Of a DNA stretch of 6,219 bases, positions 112 through 6,219 are shown in pieces. A program made the translations under genes and the position numbers. Each line of letters begins with the position of its first letter. Positions within the stretch are counted from its first letter, which is position 1. The stretch comes from Bacteroidales bacterium UBA1256 (GTDB lineage Bacteria; Bacteroidota; Bacteroidia; Bacteroidales; Paludibacteraceae). The stretch is from contig DBVU01000031.1 of assembly GCA_002308195.1 (NCBI GenBank), positions 1 to 6,219 on the forward strand. The letters are read 5' to 3'. Below the pieces are notes generated by a model that was given only the letters and a program-made list of their open reading frames with translations, searched no databases and was not told where the DNA came from.

Positions 112-2343
112 ATGAGAAAAATCTCCTTATTTTTTTGCGCATTGCTAGTTGCCGTGTGCATGAATGCCACTATCATCAATGGCATCACCTATTCTCTTGA
201 TCCGTCCGACTCTACTGCCTGGGTTTCGGCTGACGAGAGCGGCGAGAGTCTCTATCAGGGCGACATGGTTATCCCTGCTACGGTCGAGTACGAGGGTATC
301 CCCTACCGCGTAACAGGAATCTACTCCTATGCTTTTTCGTATGAGAACCGACTCAAATCGATTGTTCTGCCCGAAGGACTGGAGTCTATCGAGTACGGTG
401 CTTTCGACCATTGCGACAGTCTCCTGTCTATCACGCTGCCTAGCACGTTGAAGTCCATTGCTAAGACAGCCTTCCAGTATTGTTTGCAACTGGATTCCAT
501 CGGTTTGCCGGACAATCTGGAAGTAATCGATGAAGAAGTCTTTCTTGATTGCTACAATCTGCGCGCCATTCATCTGCCGGCCAATCTGAAAACGATCGGC
601 TATGAGGCGTTCCACAATTGCTACAAACTGGCCAACATCACTTTCCCGGAAGGACTGCAAAAGATCATGAGGGATGCTTTCTGGGACTGCTGGAGTCTGA
701 CCGAAATCACCCTGCCTAGCACGCTGACCGTATTGAGTGACTATGCGTTTGAGCAGTGTATCAATCTGCGTAGCATCAATCTGCCGGAATCGATCACCGA
801 TATGGGTAACTATCTGTTCCAGGGCGACACCTTGCTGCCTGAGCCTATCTACAACAGCAAGTATTTTGCCTACTGCCCGCCTAAGTACGCTACTTCTTAC
901 GCCGTACCTGATGGCATCCAGGTAATTCAGGGTGGTGCTTTCTTTGATCCTAAAGGATATTCTACCCTCGAGAGCGTTACCCTGCCTTCTTCGGTCCGCA
1001 TCATCTACAACGATGGCTTCAACAACTGTACCCAACTAAGCTCGGTTACACTCAACGAAGGACTGACAGACATCGGAAGCAATGCCTTTGCCAACACCCA
1101 CCTCACGTCGCTCGCCCTGCCGGCTTCGCTGACTTATGTCTCAGCCACTGCTTTCCCTGCCAGCCTGACCACTCTGACCATTGCTGAGGGGAATACCACA
1201 TACCAGGTAGTCAACAATTGCTTGATCGAGAAAAACTCGGGCGCATTGGTTTGGTCGCCTGTAGGGGCTGCGCTGCCGGAAGGAATCACCGAAATAGCCG
1301 ATTACGCTTTCAATAATCGTACCGACCTGACCGAGTTTACCATTCCGTCCACCGTCACCAAGATTGGCGAATACGCGTTCTCCCATTGCGACAACCTGAC
1401 CTCTATCGTTGTTCCCGAAGGAGTAACGGAGATGGGCTACGGAGTATTCGAATCTTGCTCGCACCTGAGGGAGGTAACCCTGCCTTCTTCGTTGACCGAG
1501 TTGAGCGGTTTTATGTTCTACTATTGCTACCGCTTGGAGACCGTTCATCTGCCGGCCAATCTGAAATCGATCGGTGAGTATGCCTTCTATGTGTGCGACA
1601 GTCTGAAATCGCTCGACCTGCCTAATTCGGTACAGAATATTGAAGATTATGCGTTCAGTGACTGCTATCATCTGACTTCGCCTATCTACAATGATCATCT
1701 CTTTGTCCGCATGCCGACGAGCTACGAAGGCGCGTATACCATACCTGAAGGCATCGAGACGATTGAGAGCTATGCGTTCCATATTTGCGAGAAACTGACA
1801 GGCGTTACTTTCCCGTCTTCGCTCAGACGTATCGAGCGAGAAGCTTTCTGGTTGTACAACGAATCTCCGCTGACCGTCATCGACCTGTCGAAAGGCTGCG
1901 ACACGATCGACTCATACGCCTTTGAGGATGTCTATGGTGTGGAGAAACTCCTCCTGCCGGCTTCGCTGAAGTATATTGAAGACTATGCTTTCTCGTTCTA
2001 CGATTTCACCAACCTAAAGGAGATTTGGAACTACGCTGCTACGCCGCTTGATATGCATGCACAGGGCATCTATGATATTAATGTGGCTTGGTATTATATC
2101 GAAAACGATGTAGACCCTGCTGACGTCATACTCTATGTTCCGGAAGGTTCGGTCGATGCCTACAAGGCCGCAGATATCTGGAAAGAATTCGATGTACAAC
2201 CGATGCCTGGAAGCCATACGGGTATCGACAATGTCGATGGTCAAGAGTCGAATGTCGAAGGTCGAAAGATTTTGCGCAATGGCCAATTGCTCATCGAGCG
2301 CGATGGACGCGTTTATAACGTCCTTGGCACGCAAGTCCGTTAA
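112..2343 (+). CDS. Secreted BspA-like leucine-rich-repeat protein (LRR_5 family), 743 aa
   Basis: A predicted exported protein. Residues 1-19 form a signal peptide (basic MRK, then a hydrophobic core ending near CMNA). From residue 81, seven consecutive 23-residue LRR_5 repeats start at L81, L104, L127, L150, L173, L196 and L219. They follow the pattern LxxIxLPxxLxxIxxxAFxxC, with a cysteine recurring in most units. A further repeat block lies at about 281-640. Two interrupting segments contain PIYN...Y motifs (about 244-266 and 523-543), and a third variable insert lies near 355-390. After the LRRs come a YVPEGSVDAYKAA motif (675-687), a short acidic linker (about 704-718) encoded by heptamer repeats, and a conserved tail (719-743). 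The family includes Tannerella BspA, a surface protein that binds host matrix proteins; the ligand here is unknown. The chosen ATG gives the signal peptide directly, and no Shine-Dalgarno is visible, as is usual in Bacteroidota. An ATG at 107 opens only a two-codon ORF. The gene is probably cotranscribed with its paralog at 2461. Confidence 0.93.
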   Translation: MRKISLFFCALLVAVCMNATIINGITYSLDPSDSTAWVSADESGESLYQGDMVIPATVEYEGIPYRVTGIYSYAFSYENRLKSIVLPEGLESIEYGAFDHCDSLLSITLPSTLKSIAKTAFQYCLQLDSIGLPDNLEVIDEEVFLDCYNLRAIHLPANLKTIGYEAFHNCYKLANITFPEGLQKIMRDAFWDCWSLTEITLPSTLTVLSDYAFEQCINLRSINLPESITDMGNYLFQGDTLLPEPIYNSKYFAYCPPKYATSYAVPDGIQVIQGGAFFDPKGYSTLESVTLPSSVRIIYNDGFNNCTQLSSVTLNEGLTDIGSNAFANTHLTSLALPASLTYVSATAFPASLTTLTIAEGNTTYQVVNNCLIEKNSGALVWSPVGAALPEGITEIADYAFNNRTDLTEFTIPSTVTKIGEYAFSHCDNLTSIVVPEGVTEMGYGVFESCSHLREVTLPSSLTELSGFMFYYCYRLETVHLPANLKSIGEYAFYVCDSLKSLDLPNSVQNIEDYAFSDCYHLTSPIYNDHLFVRMPTSYEGAYTIPEGIETIESYAFHICEKLTGVTFPSSLRRIEREAFWLYNESPLTVIDLSKGCDTIDSYAFEDVYGVEKLLLPASLKYIEDYAFSFYDFTNLKEIWNYAATPLDMHAQGIYDINVAWYYIENDVDPADVILYVPEGSVDAYKAADIWKEFDVQPMPGSHTGIDNVDGQESNVEGRKILRNGQLLIERDGRVYNVLGTQVR
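2233..2267 (+). repeat. Five-unit heptamer tandem repeat in the linker coding sequence
   Basis: Five head-to-tail 7-bp units of the form gtcgann (one is gtcaaga) encode the linker between the LRR domain and the C-terminal tail. Because 7 is not a multiple of 3, the peptide repeats only after three units, giving VDGQESN followed by VEGRK. Gain or loss of one unit would put the tail out of frame. The units are not identical, which should reduce slippage. Confidence 0.85.
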
Positions 2344-2405
2344 AAGGCTAGAGGTTAAAGGCTAGAGGTTAGAGCTTTTCGCCGCTCGCCTCTCGCCTCT
2401 CGCCC
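2343..2405 (+). repeat. Intergenic heptamer repeat tract, nine units in phase
   Basis: Starting at the last base of the stop codon, nine 7-bp units run in register. Two perfect copies of a 14-bp unit (aaaggctagaggtt, 2343-2356 and 2357-2370) are followed by agagctt and ttcgccg, then three near-identical units, ctcgcct twice and ctcgccc once. The left part is purine-rich (agagg) and the right part pyrimidine-rich (cctct), so the halves could pair imperfectly. No T-run follows, so it does not look like an intrinsic terminator. Confidence 0.8.
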
Positions 2406-2437
2406 TTCACTAACTCACTAATTCACTAACTCATTAA
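2406..2437 (+). repeat. Intergenic octamer repeat tract, four units
   Basis: Four 8-bp units, alternating ttcactaa and ctcactaa (the last is ctcattaa), directly follow the heptamer tract and lead into the AT-rich leader of the second LRR gene. No TAnnTTTG box or -33 TTTG is visible anywhere in 2344-2460, which favours readthrough from the upstream gene. Confidence 0.8.
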
Positions 2438-2460
2438 ACATTAACCAATAACAAACGCGT

Positions 2461-4455
2461 ATGAAGAAAATCTCCTTATTGTTTTGCGCATTATGCGCGC
2501 TTGCGATGACCGGTAAGGCACAGACCTATATCGATAACATCGCGTATGATTATTACGGAAGCGGTAGCTCACGCTACGCCGTGGTAACCAACAACTACAT
2601 GACCGGGTACGAGGGTGACATAGTCATTCCCGATACTATCGAGATTGATGGCGACAAATACCCTGTAACAGCTATTGGTACCTATGCCTTTGAGTACGCT
2701 CACGATCTTACCAGTGTCACTCTGCCAAACACTATCAAAGTGATTTATGGCGAGGCTTTCCACGAATGTTATAAGCTCCGCAGCATCAACCTGCCGGAAG
2801 GACTGGAACAGATCATGCAAGATGCTTTCTGGGATTGCCAGAGTCTGACCGAACTCACGTTGCCTAGCACCCTGAAGCGAATCGAGGCCTACGCCTTCGA
2901 AGGATGTTACAGCCTGCGTACCATCAATTTCCCTGAGTCTTTGGAATACGCAGATGGCTTTTTGTTCCAGGGTGACACCTTGTCGGCGCCTGTCTACAAC
3001 AGCAAGTATTTTGCCCATTTCCCGCCTAATTATGCAACCAGTTACACTGTGCCTGATGGCATCGTGACCATTCTGGATGGCGCTTTCCAAGATGCTGAGT
3101 CGCTGACCAGCGTCACGCTCCCTTCGTCGGTTAAATATATCAAGAACGATGCATTCAATGGTACGGGCCTAACCGCCATCACGTTGCCCGAGGGAGTGGA
3201 AACCATCGGAAGCCAGGCTTTCCTCGGGACCAACATTGCTTCGCTCCATCTGCCTGCTTCGCTGACTTATATTGAGCCAAATGCTATACCTACCACGGTC
3301 ACCACTATCACGGTGGACGAGGCTAACTCGGAGTACTATATCGCTAACAGCTGCCTGGTACGGAAATACAATAATGCGCTAGTCTATGCTCCGGAGGGAG
3401 CTACGCTGCCGGATGTTATCACCGAGATTGGCGATCAAGCATTCATGGGACGTACCTTCACTTCGTTCACTATTCCTTCTACGATAACGCGCATCGGTGC
3501 CGAAGCGTTTGCATACTGCTACTTGCTAGATTCCATCATCATCCCTGAGAGTGTCACCGCTATCGCAGGCAATGCGTTCTTTAGCTGCTACAATCTGAAG
3601 AAAGTGGTGCTGCCGGATGGATTGAAAGAGATATCTCCGTACACTTTCTACGAATGTCAAAGCCTGGCGGAAATCAATGTTCCCTCTTCGTTGGAAAGCA
3701 TTGGTTCAGGTGCTTTCGGATATTGCTACGCGCTCAAGTCGTTCAACCTGCCTGAGTCGACTACGCAGCTTGGGACAGAGATCTTCGCTGCTTCCGGCGT
3801 GGAGCATCCGATCTACAACAGCAAGTATTTTGCTTATATGCCGCCCGCGTACAAAGGTGTCTATACCATGCCTGATGTAAGGGAGATCTGTCCGTACGCT
3901 TTCTACTACTGCGACAGCCTGACCGAGGTCATCTTCCCTGAGACGCTTCGCAAAATCGGCAATGAGGCTTTCTGGGGTTGTACGGCCCTGCAGCGAATTG
4001 ACCTGCCTGCCAGCGTTGATACGCTCGAGTCGTACGCGTTTGAGGACTGCGAGAGCGTAGAGACCTTGATTCTCCGTGGCGCACCTTCCTTCTACGATAA
4101 CTATGTCTTTGCTTTCTATGACCAGTCAAAGCTGAAAGAGGTATGGAACTACGCCGAGACACCGTTCGCATTCATTTCGCAGGGCGATCCGTTCTATGAT
4201 GTGCCGAATAAGGACCAAATCAAGCTCTACGTACCGGAAGGTTCGGTCGATGCCTACAAAGCTGCGAATTACTGGAAAGAATTCGACGTGCAACCGATGC
4301 CGGAGATCCATACGGATATCGACATTGTCGATGGTCAAGAGTCGAAAGGTGCTTCCGAGCACTCCGGAACAAGTCGAAAGACTCTCCGCAATGGCCAATT
4401 GCTCATCGAACGCGATGGACGCGTTTATACAGTTGATGGACGTCCAGTCCGTTAA
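2461..4455 (+). CDS. Secreted BspA-like leucine-rich-repeat protein (LRR_5 family), 664 aa, paralog of upstream gene
   Basis: A second exported LRR protein. The signal peptide is residues 1-20, with likely cleavage before Q21 (GKA/QTY). LRR_5 repeats fill about 83-168, 213-275, 333-445 and 485-560, with the same LxxIxLPxxLxxIxxxAFxxC pattern. They are broken by PxYNSKYFA segments near 177-196 and 450-465. A third insert (about 282-318: ANSEYYI, then NALVYAPEG) matches the one in the upstream protein. YVPEGSVDAYKAA (590-602) precedes the linker and tail. Compared with the 743-aa paralog it has fewer repeats and a linker six residues longer. The first ~25 bp and the last ~120 bp are nearly identical to the paralog, while the repeat region has diverged. 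This points to tandem duplication followed by remodelling of the binding surface. No promoter is visible in the 117-bp gap, so it is probably in an operon with the upstream gene. The likely location is the outer surface or exterior; the ligand is unknown. Confidence 0.93.
   Translation: MKKISLLFCALCALAMTGKAQTYIDNIAYDYYGSGSSRYAVVTNNYMTGYEGDIVIPDTIEIDGDKYPVTAIGTYAFEYAHDLTSVTLPNTIKVIYGEAFHECYKLRSINLPEGLEQIMQDAFWDCQSLTELTLPSTLKRIEAYAFEGCYSLRTINFPESLEYADGFLFQGDTLSAPVYNSKYFAHFPPNYATSYTVPDGIVTILDGAFQDAESLTSVTLPSSVKYIKNDAFNGTGLTAITLPEGVETIGSQAFLGTNIASLHLPASLTYIEPNAIPTTVTTITVDEANSEYYIANSCLVRKYNNALVYAPEGATLPDVITEIGDQAFMGRTFTSFTIPSTITRIGAEAFAYCYLLDSIIIPESVTAIAGNAFFSCYNLKKVVLPDGLKEISPYTFYECQSLAEINVPSSLESIGSGAFGYCYALKSFNLPESTTQLGTEIFAASGVEHPIYNSKYFAYMPPAYKGVYTMPDVREICPYAFYYCDSLTEVIFPETLRKIGNEAFWGCTALQRIDLPASVDTLESYAFEDCESVETLILRGAPSFYDNYVFAFYDQSKLKEVWNYAETPFAFISQGDPFYDVPNKDQIKLYVPEGSVDAYKAANYWKEFDVQPMPEIHTDIDIVDGQESKGASEHSGTSRKTLRNGQLLIERDGRVYTVDGRPVR
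4327..4379 (+). repeat. Heptamer repeat in the linker of the second LRR gene, interrupted by a 25-bp hairpin-forming insert
   Basis: Three gtcgann-type heptamers (4327-4347) and one more (4373-4379) flank 25 bp of unrelated sequence at 4348-4372. The insert contains gtgct-tccg-agcac (4349-4362), a 5-bp stem with a 4-nt loop. Relative to the upstream paralog the linker is 18 bp longer, so the frame of the C-terminal tail is kept. Confidence 0.8.
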
Positions 4456-4569: not shown

Positions 4570-4577
4570 CTCTAAAC

Positions 4578-4636
4578 GCTGCGTAGCAGCACTAAACGCA
4601 GCTCTGCTGCACTAAACGCAATCCATTACGGATTGC
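4578..4636 (-). repeat. Array of three hairpins with exact 20-bp period (array 1)
   Basis: Hairpins start at 4578, 4598 and 4618. The first two are 13 bp, with 5-bp perfect stems and 3-nt loops (gctgc-gta-gcagc and gcagc-tct-gctgc). The third is 19 bp (gcaatcc-attac-ggattgc). The 7-bp spacer actaaac is identical each time. On the - strand the array follows the small ORF, whose stop codon lies in the third hairpin. It resembles REP/BIME-type 3' palindromes in general form, but I recognise no named family. Confidence 0.8.
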
Positions 4637-4697
4637 TCTGGTCATACGCTGCTCCGCAGACTTTCCACAGATACGCCGCGAAGGTCTTCTTGCCATC
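4618..4697 (-). repeat. 80-bp direct repeat, copy 1 (partner 6140-6219)
   Basis: This block aligns without gaps to 6140-6219, with 72 of 80 bases identical by hand count. The first 26 bases (hairpin plus ctctggt and c) and the last 19 are fully identical, and the differences cluster between. It covers the third hairpin and the 3' part of the small ORF. The right-hand copy is cut by the window edge, so the true repeat may be longer. Confidence 0.9.
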
Positions 4698-4721
4698 GGT
4701 ATGAAGTCTGTCGTTATGCAT
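4626..4721 (-). CDS. Small ORF (31 aa) overlapping the glycosyltransferase stop codon
   Basis: I do not recognise this peptide. It reads MHNDRLHT, then DGKKTF, an AYLW segment, one cysteine and the end AAYDQSNP. Its ATG (4719-4721) overlaps the end of the glycosyltransferase gene in the arrangement atgcataa, which is typical of translational coupling, and a purine-rich stretch (aagaagaga) lies just upstream. The main evidence for coding is the second copy at 6148-6219. Over 24 shared codons there are eight base differences. Six are at third positions and five are silent, giving only two amino-acid changes (A/V and K/M), and the stop is shared. It has no signal peptide or membrane segment. Instead it could be a decayed or frameshifted C-terminal extension, or part of a repeat element. 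The start codon is less certain than the reading frame, because the homology cannot be followed beyond DGKK. Confidence 0.5.
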   Translation of the reverse strand: MHNDRLHTDGKKTFAAYLWKVCGAAYDQSNP

Positions 4722-5886
4722 GATTCTCTTCTTGGTTTTCTGTTTCCTCTATCGCTTCGCGGAACATCTGTTCGCAGAGACGGACAGAGGTGTCGATGTC
4801 GTAATTTTTGGCGGCTTCTGCATACTCGCGTTCCATTTTCGCTTTCTCGTCGGGATGGTCAAGCCACCAGTCGATGGCGCGTGCAAGGTCTTTGGGGCGG
4901 CCGGGAGCAAAGAGACTTCGCCCGTCCAAAGCAAACTGCGGCGTGGCACTGTCCTCGCTGTTGGCTATTACGGGCACCAAGCCCGTAGCAAACGCCTCGA
5001 TACAGGATATTGCTTCGCTCTCCATATCCGAAGCATGCACATAGAGGTCTGTGTGCAGCAAAAGGTCAATGAGCTCCGGTTTGGAGAGGAAGACGAACTG
5101 CGGCGGGTTCTTGAGTTGCTTGCCTAATTCCACGTACTCGTCGTATTTGGGACCTTTGCCCGCAAAAAACAGCTGAATGCGGTCGGCGTACTTGCTGAAC
5201 GGCACGGCATTGATGATGACATCCTGCCGTTTCTCGCCGGACAGACGTCCGACCATGACGATGGTGATGAGACTGCCATCGCTGCGGGATGTATGACCGC
5301 CATCGCTGTTAGAGAGTTTCCGCTGCCCAGCGGCGATAAAATCCGGGTCAATGCCGTTGGAAATCACATGTATCTTCGCCTTATAGCCGCGTTTGATGAG
5401 TTCGTCCGCCATGAACTGCGAGGGCACATGGATGTGGTTGAAATGTTGGTAGAGCAGGAAACGGAAGGTATGATAGAAACGATCGTTGAGCCATTCCGCC
5501 TTGCCCAGACCGATAGAAGAAGTCATGTTTTCCGGTTGGATGTGGAACGCTGCCGTGGACGGTTTGTGCATCTGGTCAGCTATGAGTTTGGTGGCTGTCT
5601 CCAGCGCGAAAGGCATCATACAATGCACGATGTCCGCCCATGCCACCGCCTCGCGGATGATGTCCAGATCGACTTGCGCGAACTGGAAACCGTGTGAGTG
5701 AATGAGGTCGTTGAAAATGGGCACTTTGAACTCCTTGAGGACGAACTTGTCAGGTGCCGGTTCGCCGGTAGTAAGGATGCGCACTTCGTTGCCGTGCTCG
5801 CGGAGTACCGCCGCAAAACGCTGGGCGGAGATGGACGTGCCGTTGTTATTGGTGTCGTACGTGTCAATGACGAGAAGTATTTTCAT
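4714..5886 (-). CDS. Glycosyltransferase family 4 (GT-B fold), 390 aa
   Basis: A retaining GT4-type enzyme that transfers a sugar from a nucleotide donor. The N-terminal Rossmann domain begins MKILLVIDTY and has the acceptor-side loop NNNGTSISAQRFA (13-25). HIQPEN lies at 115-120, and SNGID (176-180) marks the end of the N-domain. The C-terminal donor domain has VGRLSGEKRQD (212-222), with the usual R214 and K219, and AGKG (242-245). The EX7E signature is E289/E297 in the segment ending IEAFATGLVPV. There is no signal peptide or membrane span, so it acts in the cytoplasm, probably at the membrane face. The HxQPEN motif and overall pattern resemble diacylglycerol or surface-glycan glucosyltransferases, but the acceptor is not established. 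Length is normal for GT4. Residues 192-205 are an unusual S/D/G-rich insert. The ATG is supported by the Rossmann strand starting directly at MKILLV. The gene is convergent with the LRR pair and followed by the overlapping 31-codon ORF. Confidence 0.92.
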   Translation of the reverse strand: MKILLVIDTYDTNNNGTSISAQRFAAVLREHGNEVRILTTGEPAPDKFVLKEFKVPIFNDLIHSHGFQFAQVDLDIIREAVAWADIVHCMMPFALETATKLIADQMHKPSTAAFHIQPENMTSSIGLGKAEWLNDRFYHTFRFLLYQHFNHIHVPSQFMADELIKRGYKAKIHVISNGIDPDFIAAGQRKLSNSDGGHTSRSDGSLITIVMVGRLSGEKRQDVIINAVPFSKYADRIQLFFAGKGPKYDEYVELGKQLKNPPQFVFLSKPELIDLLLHTDLYVHASDMESEAISCIEAFATGLVPVIANSEDSATPQFALDGRSLFAPGRPKDLARAIDWWLDHPDEKAKMEREYAEAAKNYDIDTSVRLCEQMFREAIEETENQEENHA

Positions 5887-6010
5887 GTATAAATAGTTAT
5901 AATTTTTATTTTGTGCTGTGGGTTCGGCTGGAGGAACGGTATGGGTGGGCGGTCATGCCGAGGTGTTTCTCATAAGGGCATGTGTTTTTTACCGTTTGCG
6001 TTTCCGGCTG
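5887..6010 (-). promoter_or_regulatory. 5' leader of the glycosyltransferase gene with a possible 16-aa upstream ORF
   Basis: The roughly 120-nt leader has no recognised riboswitch. It contains an ATG-led ORF of 16 codons plus stop (5906-5956 on the - strand, MTAHPYRSS...), out of frame with the enzyme, and a two-codon ORF before it. The complementary segments catgcc and ggcatg (17-nt loop, about 5954-5982) could form a modest stem. The last 30 nt are AT-rich without a Shine-Dalgarno, as is common in Bacteroidota. Any regulatory role is inference. Confidence 0.3.
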
Positions 6011-6042
6011 CGAAATTACAACAAAAATTGCACATATGCAAG
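6011..6042 (-). promoter_or_regulatory. Candidate promoter for the glycosyltransferase gene
   Basis: On the - strand, taatttcg (6011-6018) is one mismatch from the -7 consensus TAnnTTTG. It is preceded at a 20-bp spacing by cttg (6039-6042), one mismatch from the -33 TTTG. An inverted repeat, ttgca-cata-tgcaa (6028-6041), lies between and overlaps the -33 element, so it could be an operator. The site is just downstream of a terminator for the preceding - strand unit, which is where a promoter is expected. Confidence 0.55.
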
Positions 6043-6052
6043 TTTTCGAGCG

Positions 6053-6078
6053 AAAAAAAGAGCGCCGAAGCGCCCTTT
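6053..6078 (-). terminator. Intrinsic terminator of the - strand unit entering from the right
   Basis: Read on the - strand, gggcgc-ttcg-gcgctc forms a 6-bp stem closed by a UUCG tetraloop. It is extended by three A-U pairs and followed by seven U's (complement of 6053-6059). The single G-U wobble (6061/6074) would be an A-C mismatch on the + strand, so the terminator is oriented for - strand transcription. Confidence 0.88.
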
Positions 6079-6158
6079 CCTAAACAGCGTAGCGTAAACG
6101 CGCTGAAAGCGCACTACACGCGACGTAGTCGCACTACACGCAATCCATTACGGATTGC
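6079..6158 (-). repeat. Array of three hairpins with exact 20-bp period (array 2)
   Basis: Hairpins start at 6100, 6120 and 6140. They are gcgct-gaa-agcgc, gcgac-gta-gtcgc and the same 19-bp hairpin as in array 1 (6140-6158), each separated by the spacer actacac. On the - strand the array is followed by a gtttacgctacgct unit and gtttagg (6079-6099), then the terminator. The first two stems share no base-for-base identity with array 1 beyond the GC ends, yet the geometry is identical. Confidence 0.8.
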
Positions 6159-6219
6159 TCTGGTCGTAGGCTGCGCCACAAACCATCCACAGATACGCCA
6201 CGAAGGTCTTCTTGCCATC
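6140..6219 (-). repeat. 80-bp direct repeat, copy 2 (partner 4618-4697)
   Basis: Aligns without gaps to copy 1 and differs at eight positions. Both copies lie at the 3' end of a - strand unit, between the coding sequence and a terminator. The window edge cuts this copy, so its full length is unknown. Confidence 0.9.
6148..6219 (-). CDS. 3' end of a - strand reading frame, homologous to the 31-aa small ORF (partial)
   Basis: Only the last 23 codons and the TAA stop (6148-6150) are visible, running from DGKKTF at the right edge to AAYDQSNP. The peptide differs from the 31-aa ORF at two residues (V for A, M for K), while five other codons differ silently. In the + strand frame that keeps the same third positions, this copy has an in-frame TAG, so the - strand frame is preferred. 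Whether it is another small ORF or the C-terminus of a larger protein depends on sequence outside the window. Confidence 0.5.
   Translation of the reverse strand, partial: DGKKTFVAYLWMVCGAAYDQSNP

Follow-up and report, generated by a model that had tools for sequence, protein, structure and literature searches.

A 31-codon reading frame behind a Bacteroidales glycosyltransferase gene, probably a scar left by a mosaic multi-copy gene family

Multigene families under concerted evolution, with gene conversion between dispersed paralogs, hold copies that are more alike within a genome than copies of the same type elsewhere. The Rhs and polymorphic toxin modules have one half that is constant per genome and another that is exchangeable. 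Some integrative elements enter a gene at its 3' end, rebuild it and displace its old end, and free-standing HNH homing endonucleases provide a further comparison for the locus described here. In Bacteroidales, the BrickBuilt MITEs of Porphyromonas gingivalis are repeats with internal short tandem units (PMC4596501).

The stretch of DNA analysed here (the window, 6,219 nucleotides of contig DBVU01000031.1 of Bacteroidales bacterium UBA1256) contains a 31-codon ORF that is very probably not a stand-alone gene, being instead a scar that joins two gene pieces in frame. The fused tail appears to have broken off the end of a larger gene, present in many copies in gut and rumen bacteria, which encodes proteins of about 130 aa. 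Like the members of concerted-evolution families, copies of this gene are more alike within a genome than copies of the same type elsewhere; however, the effect is strongest in the C-terminal half (C-half), an N-terminal half (N-half) retains its type from one species to the next, and the gene tends to lie where a module ends. As in Rhs and polymorphic toxins, one half is genome-constant and the other exchangeable, yet the polarity is reversed (the C-half is constant), the length is about 130 aa and no Pfam, PHROG or NCBIfam domain was found. The likeness to 3'-end integrative elements is that at two loci (L156 and L161) the gene's 3' end is altered and a tail typical of that genome comes after it, whereas none of 52 Phage_integrase matches lies within 12 kb upstream of a family copy and one lies within 12 kb on the other side. 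The likeness to homing endonucleases consists of HNH_3 matches at 2.1-3.9 kb upstream of 12 copies, while the right border here falls inside a protein gene that varies by genome. In contrast to the BrickBuilt MITEs, the hairpin arms in the window vary yet stay palindromic, and a coding tail is attached. A module gene at another locus (L143) resembles the smalltalk protein (NF033879; E 0.0011) at 18.7 bits, under the cut-off of 24.7 bits.

The chimeric reading frame and the second tail copy

The features of the window are as follows.

4626..4721, minus strand, chimeric ORF of 31 codons (from the ORF list; its junction recurs in protein P0241)
4701..4721, minus strand, first seven codons (MHNDRLH), start of the native downstream gene (10 of 13 relatives; block edge at 4700)
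4626..4697, minus strand, orphan 3' end (24 codons with the stop) of the terminal-gene family of about 130 aa (tblastn match)
6148..6219, minus strand, copy 2 of the tail, from the 3' end of a family gene that is presumably full-length but truncated by the window edge
4578..4636, no strand, three-hairpin array over the last codons of the orphan tail (array-finding rule)
6100..6158, no strand, three-hairpin array over the last codons of copy 2 (array-finding rule)
4714..5886, minus strand, glycosyltransferase gene, 390 aa (Glycos_transf_1, Glyco_transf_4)
4700..5970, minus strand, block collinear with relatives (97.2% to L003 over 4700-5966)
5983..6058, minus strand, upstream region in common with L007 (92%)

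The ORF has as its start codon the ATG of ATGCATAA, which overlaps the stop of the glycosyltransferase gene, as the original prediction had it. Its first seven codons belong to another gene, which had been missed. These codons are assigned to the native gene start because relatives share the start and collinearity breaks at 4700. Eighty loci around relatives were retrieved and 13 close relatives were compared downstream, 10 of which have a gene start M[RH]NDRLH that overlaps the glycosyltransferase stop. The native downstream gene in L005 is a 228-aa ORF (L005:5667-6353), by eye a membrane protein. By eye, it is truncated, rearranged or missing in three of the 13 relatives (L004, L023, L007). 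The collinear block stops abruptly at both ends (4700 and about 5970) and takes in the final codons of a regulator gene on its upstream side (by eye AraC-like, judged from L005) as well as the first seven codons of the downstream gene. Among database proteins, the best 120 listed are 95-100% identical to the glycosyltransferase, and two of them are named Paludibacteraceae. On the plus strand, 112-4455 holds two adjacent BspA-type leucine-rich-repeat proteins (743 and 664 aa) that have many repeats in common, and this pair ends convergent with the glycosyltransferase unit.

The orphan tail is homologous to the C-terminus of the module-terminal family of about 130 aa, whose 130-aa protein from L007 matches it with 77.8% identity over 18 aa (tblastn, E 5.7e-5). 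L007 has a family gene on the upstream side of its glycosyltransferase gene, and the two share one orientation. At the DNA level the orphan tail was matched in 33 of 178 genomes of the genus, every listed match falling inside the coding part of the query. The N-half of the family is absent from the window's first copy, which is therefore not full-length.

The fusion itself recurs in P0241, a 31-aa glycosyltransferase-linked protein on a different contig that has the same junction, two changed residues and an open frame, and that one source labels a hypothetical protein. Of the two members of its cluster, which are on two contigs, one could be the ORF of the window itself. The same fusion is thus found on at least one other contig, which makes an assembly error unlikely. 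A 40-aa query spanning the ORF, in a search covering proteins of about 22-70 aa with exact words in common, retrieved P0241 as the single protein; within that size range, recurrence as a short protein in differing contexts was not found, the one 31-aa protein showing the same fusion. The ORF may be translated by coupling to the glycosyltransferase, and the resulting peptide is expected to be without a function of its own.

The predicted recurrence at 6148-6219 holds as well, with eight of 72 bases differing from 4626-4697, six at third and two at second codon positions. For this third-position excess, the predicted p of about 0.02 was reproduced in the given frame (binomial p = 0.0197) and became 0.059 with any codon position allowed, so that the excess is weak taken alone. 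Over the 23 codons the two copies gave dN 0.048 and dS 0.47, from very few sites. Copy 2 abuts the window end, so it is the window that caps the length at 23 codons. It is presumably the end of an intact family gene, since L007 has a family gene upstream of its glycosyltransferase and shares 5983-6058.

The full repeat measures 125 nt with 81% identity (4573-4697 and 6095-6219), extending past the ORF stop into the hairpins. Each copy has three hairpins, one of which is identical between the copies, while the other two differ on both arms, which are still palindromic, and have similar spacers. Under the rule applied, these two arrays are the only ones in the window. The hairpin array was rejected as a general mark of the family, strict arrays being found behind 2 of 40 other family copies. 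A search of the window against Rfam gave two sub-threshold matches, neither at the tails.

The parent family and its mosaic copies

The motif DGKKTFxAYLW..CGxxYD, at the core of the tail, is the C-terminus of a family of about 130 aa with 1645 proteins (90% clusters) at E<=0.01. The original prediction of an unannotated small-protein family therefore survives in part: the core is protein-coding and the family is unannotated, but the core is the end of a much longer protein, and the small-protein part of the claim found no support with the 40-aa query, whose single hit was the same fusion. No match was obtained in Pfam at E<=10 or in NCBIfam at E<=0.5, and none was significant in PHROG (best E 0.24). 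A literature search covering titles and the beginnings of abstracts, for part of the papers found, gave no description, and the mosaic family is undescribed in the Pfam, PHROG, NCBIfam and literature listings searched. In the predicted structure (pTM 0.46) the C-half is helical, with block means of pLDDT 76-88 against 43-58 in the N-half. Foldseek found no match in PDB or BFVD at E<=0.001, and no function could therefore be derived from the fold.

The family was matched in 17 of the 28 genomes first searched (E<=1e-3), with up to 25-26 matches per genome, fragments counted, in one Paludibacteraceae-like genus. Of the 178 genomes of this genus, 129 gave a match (E<=1e-5), and in 96 of these the best E was <=1e-20 (own count); paralogs at a greater distance may account for the weaker matches. 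When 393 genomes sampled from the order were searched and up to 10 candidates were scored in each, three matched, all belonging to the same genus. Contigs of G124 (C4, C7, C10, C30) and G132 (C17, C14, C1) repeatedly break off inside a family gene or a short way upstream of one; the family loci are therefore probably undercounted and cut in short-read assemblies.

The family copies are mosaics, with an N-half common between species and a C-half tending to match within the genome. For a first set of 23 full-length copies from five genomes, median identities were 52% (N-half) and 94% (C-half) within genomes, and 51% and 62% between genomes. Seven more genomes extended the set to 62 genes from 12 genomes, a count that leaves out four penultimate-type genes (MAKATYAPMFET...). 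Over all pairs of the 62 genes, the N- and C-half medians were 86% and 93% within genomes, and 71% and 57% between genomes. When the N-halves were at least 85% identical between genomes (157 pairs), the median C-half identity was 57%; when they were at most 60% identical within a genome (32 pairs), it was 91%. The observed C-minus-N difference was reached in 0 of 1000 label shuffles. Adding the four penultimate-type genes (66 genes) gave all-pair C-half medians of 56% between and 91% within genomes, and 83% for the 56 within-genome pairs with N-halves at or below 60%, the observed value again being reached in 0 of 1000 shuffles. Two genomes count against the mosaic rule, G182 and G141, each with two C-half types, and G183, G044 and G172 show no contrast because their N-halves are alike too.

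At the DNA level, L150 (G009) and L158 (G023) are 87-100% identical from 330 nt before the gene to base 150, 83% over the next 30 bases and then 57-83% to the stop. Downstream of a fixed tryptophan, the final 13 or so codons also look by eye like exchangeable blocks. The dN/dS check that had been proposed for the coding core was run on the family and agrees with a coding core, the medians being 0.19 for the N-half between genomes (156 usable pairs) and 0.16 for the C-half within genomes (132 usable pairs), both biased low because the pairs were selected by identity. A separate subtype (MAKATYAPMFET...) stands in tandem directly upstream of the terminal gene in L153, L231, L248, L252 and L253, and departs from the rule of a genome-specific C-half.

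Gene context and displaced tails

Family copies tend to be the 3'-terminal gene of small modules. The content of the modules varies and includes an HNH nuclease in part of them, a DUF5675 protein and small paralogous proteins; in some, restriction or abortive-infection genes lie farther upstream. Context was counted for the 90 strongest of 132 family rows, leaving out one second piece and weaker rows. All rows were used for HNH_3, DUF5675 and Phage_integrase; for N6_Mtase, 51 of 62 rows were used, with nine second gene pieces and two rows below the cut-off omitted. Within 4.5 kb of a copy lie 12 of 40 HNH_3 matches, all upstream and on the same strand, and within 2.5 kb lie 14 of 26 DUF5675 matches, 12 of them upstream and all 14 on the same strand; 0.57 at most and 0.43, respectively, were expected under the only roughly true assumptions that genomes are single pieces and hits independent. 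Eight of the 51 N6_Mtase matches lie within 12 kb, all upstream and six on the same strand (P 0.029 for both sides; 0.0005 for upstream only, a side chosen after seeing the result). Upstream enrichment is thus far above chance for HNH and DUF5675, moderate for methylases and absent for integrases. The majority of the 90 copies have no HNH_3 match that near, and the majority likewise have no methylase that near. Integrase-driven insertion was unsupported, no tyrosine recombinase match being found in the 12 kb upstream of the copies. Ten upstream proteins, hand-picked by eye from 17-kb loci, were searched with PADLOC, and seven matched at E<=1e-5 (type I and IIG restriction systems, AbiLi, a methyltransferase and PifA-like), so some modules carry defence genes; since the ten were picked by eye, seven of ten is no rate. 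No defence cargo was seen by eye in L181 and L185.

Further tails of the same genome type occur within 400 nt behind 7 of 41 copies, and behind 5 of 41 when the copy's own tail is the query; one more hit, the eighth, proved to be a second, complete gene in L153. In L156 and L161, which come from two genomes, the last block of the gene is of a different kind, in part common to L165 of G007; behind it come first a structured element of about 115-145 nt and next a tail like those of the same genome's other copies. An element of 105-145 nt, containing by eye a long imperfect hairpin, stands right behind the stops of family genes in four genomes (L156:2841-2985, L141:2905-3011, L161 and L174), with similar stretches in L092, L094 and L096. 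It gave no match in Rfam for the eight loci searched.

Twenty C-terminal fragments were retrieved, of which 8 run into a contig end and 12 are contig-internal. Three are orphan 3' ends (L290, about 17 codons; L294, about 35; L302, about 50), seven are rearranged or broken copies (L298, L299, L300, L301, L303, L304, L308), and L305 and L306 are a divergent paralog. No long open frame precedes the three orphans, where by eye there are short in-frame stretches or a stop. Orphan tails besides the window's are few, in a small sample. Exact tail patterns had no match in viral contigs or genome contigs; with one mismatch allowed, a 15-base tail pattern hit 25 of the 178 genomes of the genus, all 26 listed matches being inexact, the reversed-pattern control hit 12 (own count), and no conclusion was drawn. 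Distant blastn searches gave no match in phages and three 27-base matches (E 0.5) in plasmids.

Explanations and proposed working

A real small protein of 31 aa, translationally coupled to the glycosyltransferase, under selection and recruited from the tail of a larger gene, would agree with the open frame and its native coupled start, with the same ORF in P0241, still open after two residue changes, and with the mostly silent differences to copy 2. Silent differences are, however, also expected if the tail derives recently from a gene that is under purifying selection; P0241 is the one such protein found, and the native gene start stands in its place in 10 of 13 relatives, so that this explanation is improbable. 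The original prediction also offered a repeat bringing a coding tail to different genes. This happened here once, but the orphans L290, L294 and L302 follow no long gene. A MITE- or REP-like mobile 3'-end repeat, made of hairpin array and coding tail and inserting behind genes, is highly improbable: tail and array recur together within the window, and further tails lie behind 7 of 41 copies, whereas the listed genus matches fall in the coding part and not in the array, strict arrays are rare behind other copies (2 of 40) and none of the three examined orphan tails follows a long open frame. Family copies are often found at contig ends, as is copy 2 at the window end, and a contig misjoined at a repeat could have produced the chimera. 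The break near 4700 is not within a longer stretch common to both sides, though, and the junction recurs, with a different tail, on at least one other contig (the second cluster member may be the window's ORF); a misjoin is accordingly barely credible.

We therefore hold with considerable confidence to the account of a scar and a mosaic family, in which the ORF is a native seven-codon start fused to a displaced family tail and recombination would take place in the C-terminal block (C-block). Each copy combines a module-typical N-half common between species, a C-block that is for the most part homogenised in its genome and a short last block that is exchangeable as well. Since the C-block is alike in most genomes, it would be a natural site for recombination between resident and arriving modules, which would link the arriving modules to the resident C-half. 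Such exchange would hand the host's C-half to a travelling N-half and keep the C-halves of a genome alike, while uneven exchange or partial insertion would leave duplicated or orphan 3' ends. In the window, one shed tail with its hairpin array would have become fused to the first codons of the gene that follows the glycosyltransferase. The chimera, the family, its mosaic make-up, the gene context and the further orphan and tandem tails are observed; we infer from these patterns that C-half recombination swaps modules and sheds tails. That the HNH nuclease drives the exchange is a guess, and with C-halves just about 57% alike in protein, ordinary homologous recombination would not be easy.

It is conceivable, if rather unlikely, that the genus has a cassette system that works without an integrase, in which modules, some with HNH and anti-phage cargo, move between species and dock into the C-half of the gene. 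The many similar C-halves per genome would then be docking arms and the orphan 3' ends footprints of past exchanges; because many like C-halves would be kept in each genome, arriving modules would gain the host's C-half.

If the mosaic reflects module uptake, one marker gene would help to locate exchangeable gene blocks, some carrying defence genes, in a group of rumen and gut bacteria, and would hint at a way for such blocks to move without an integrase. Short conserved frames, moreover, can be shed 3' ends of larger multi-copy genes and not small proteins.
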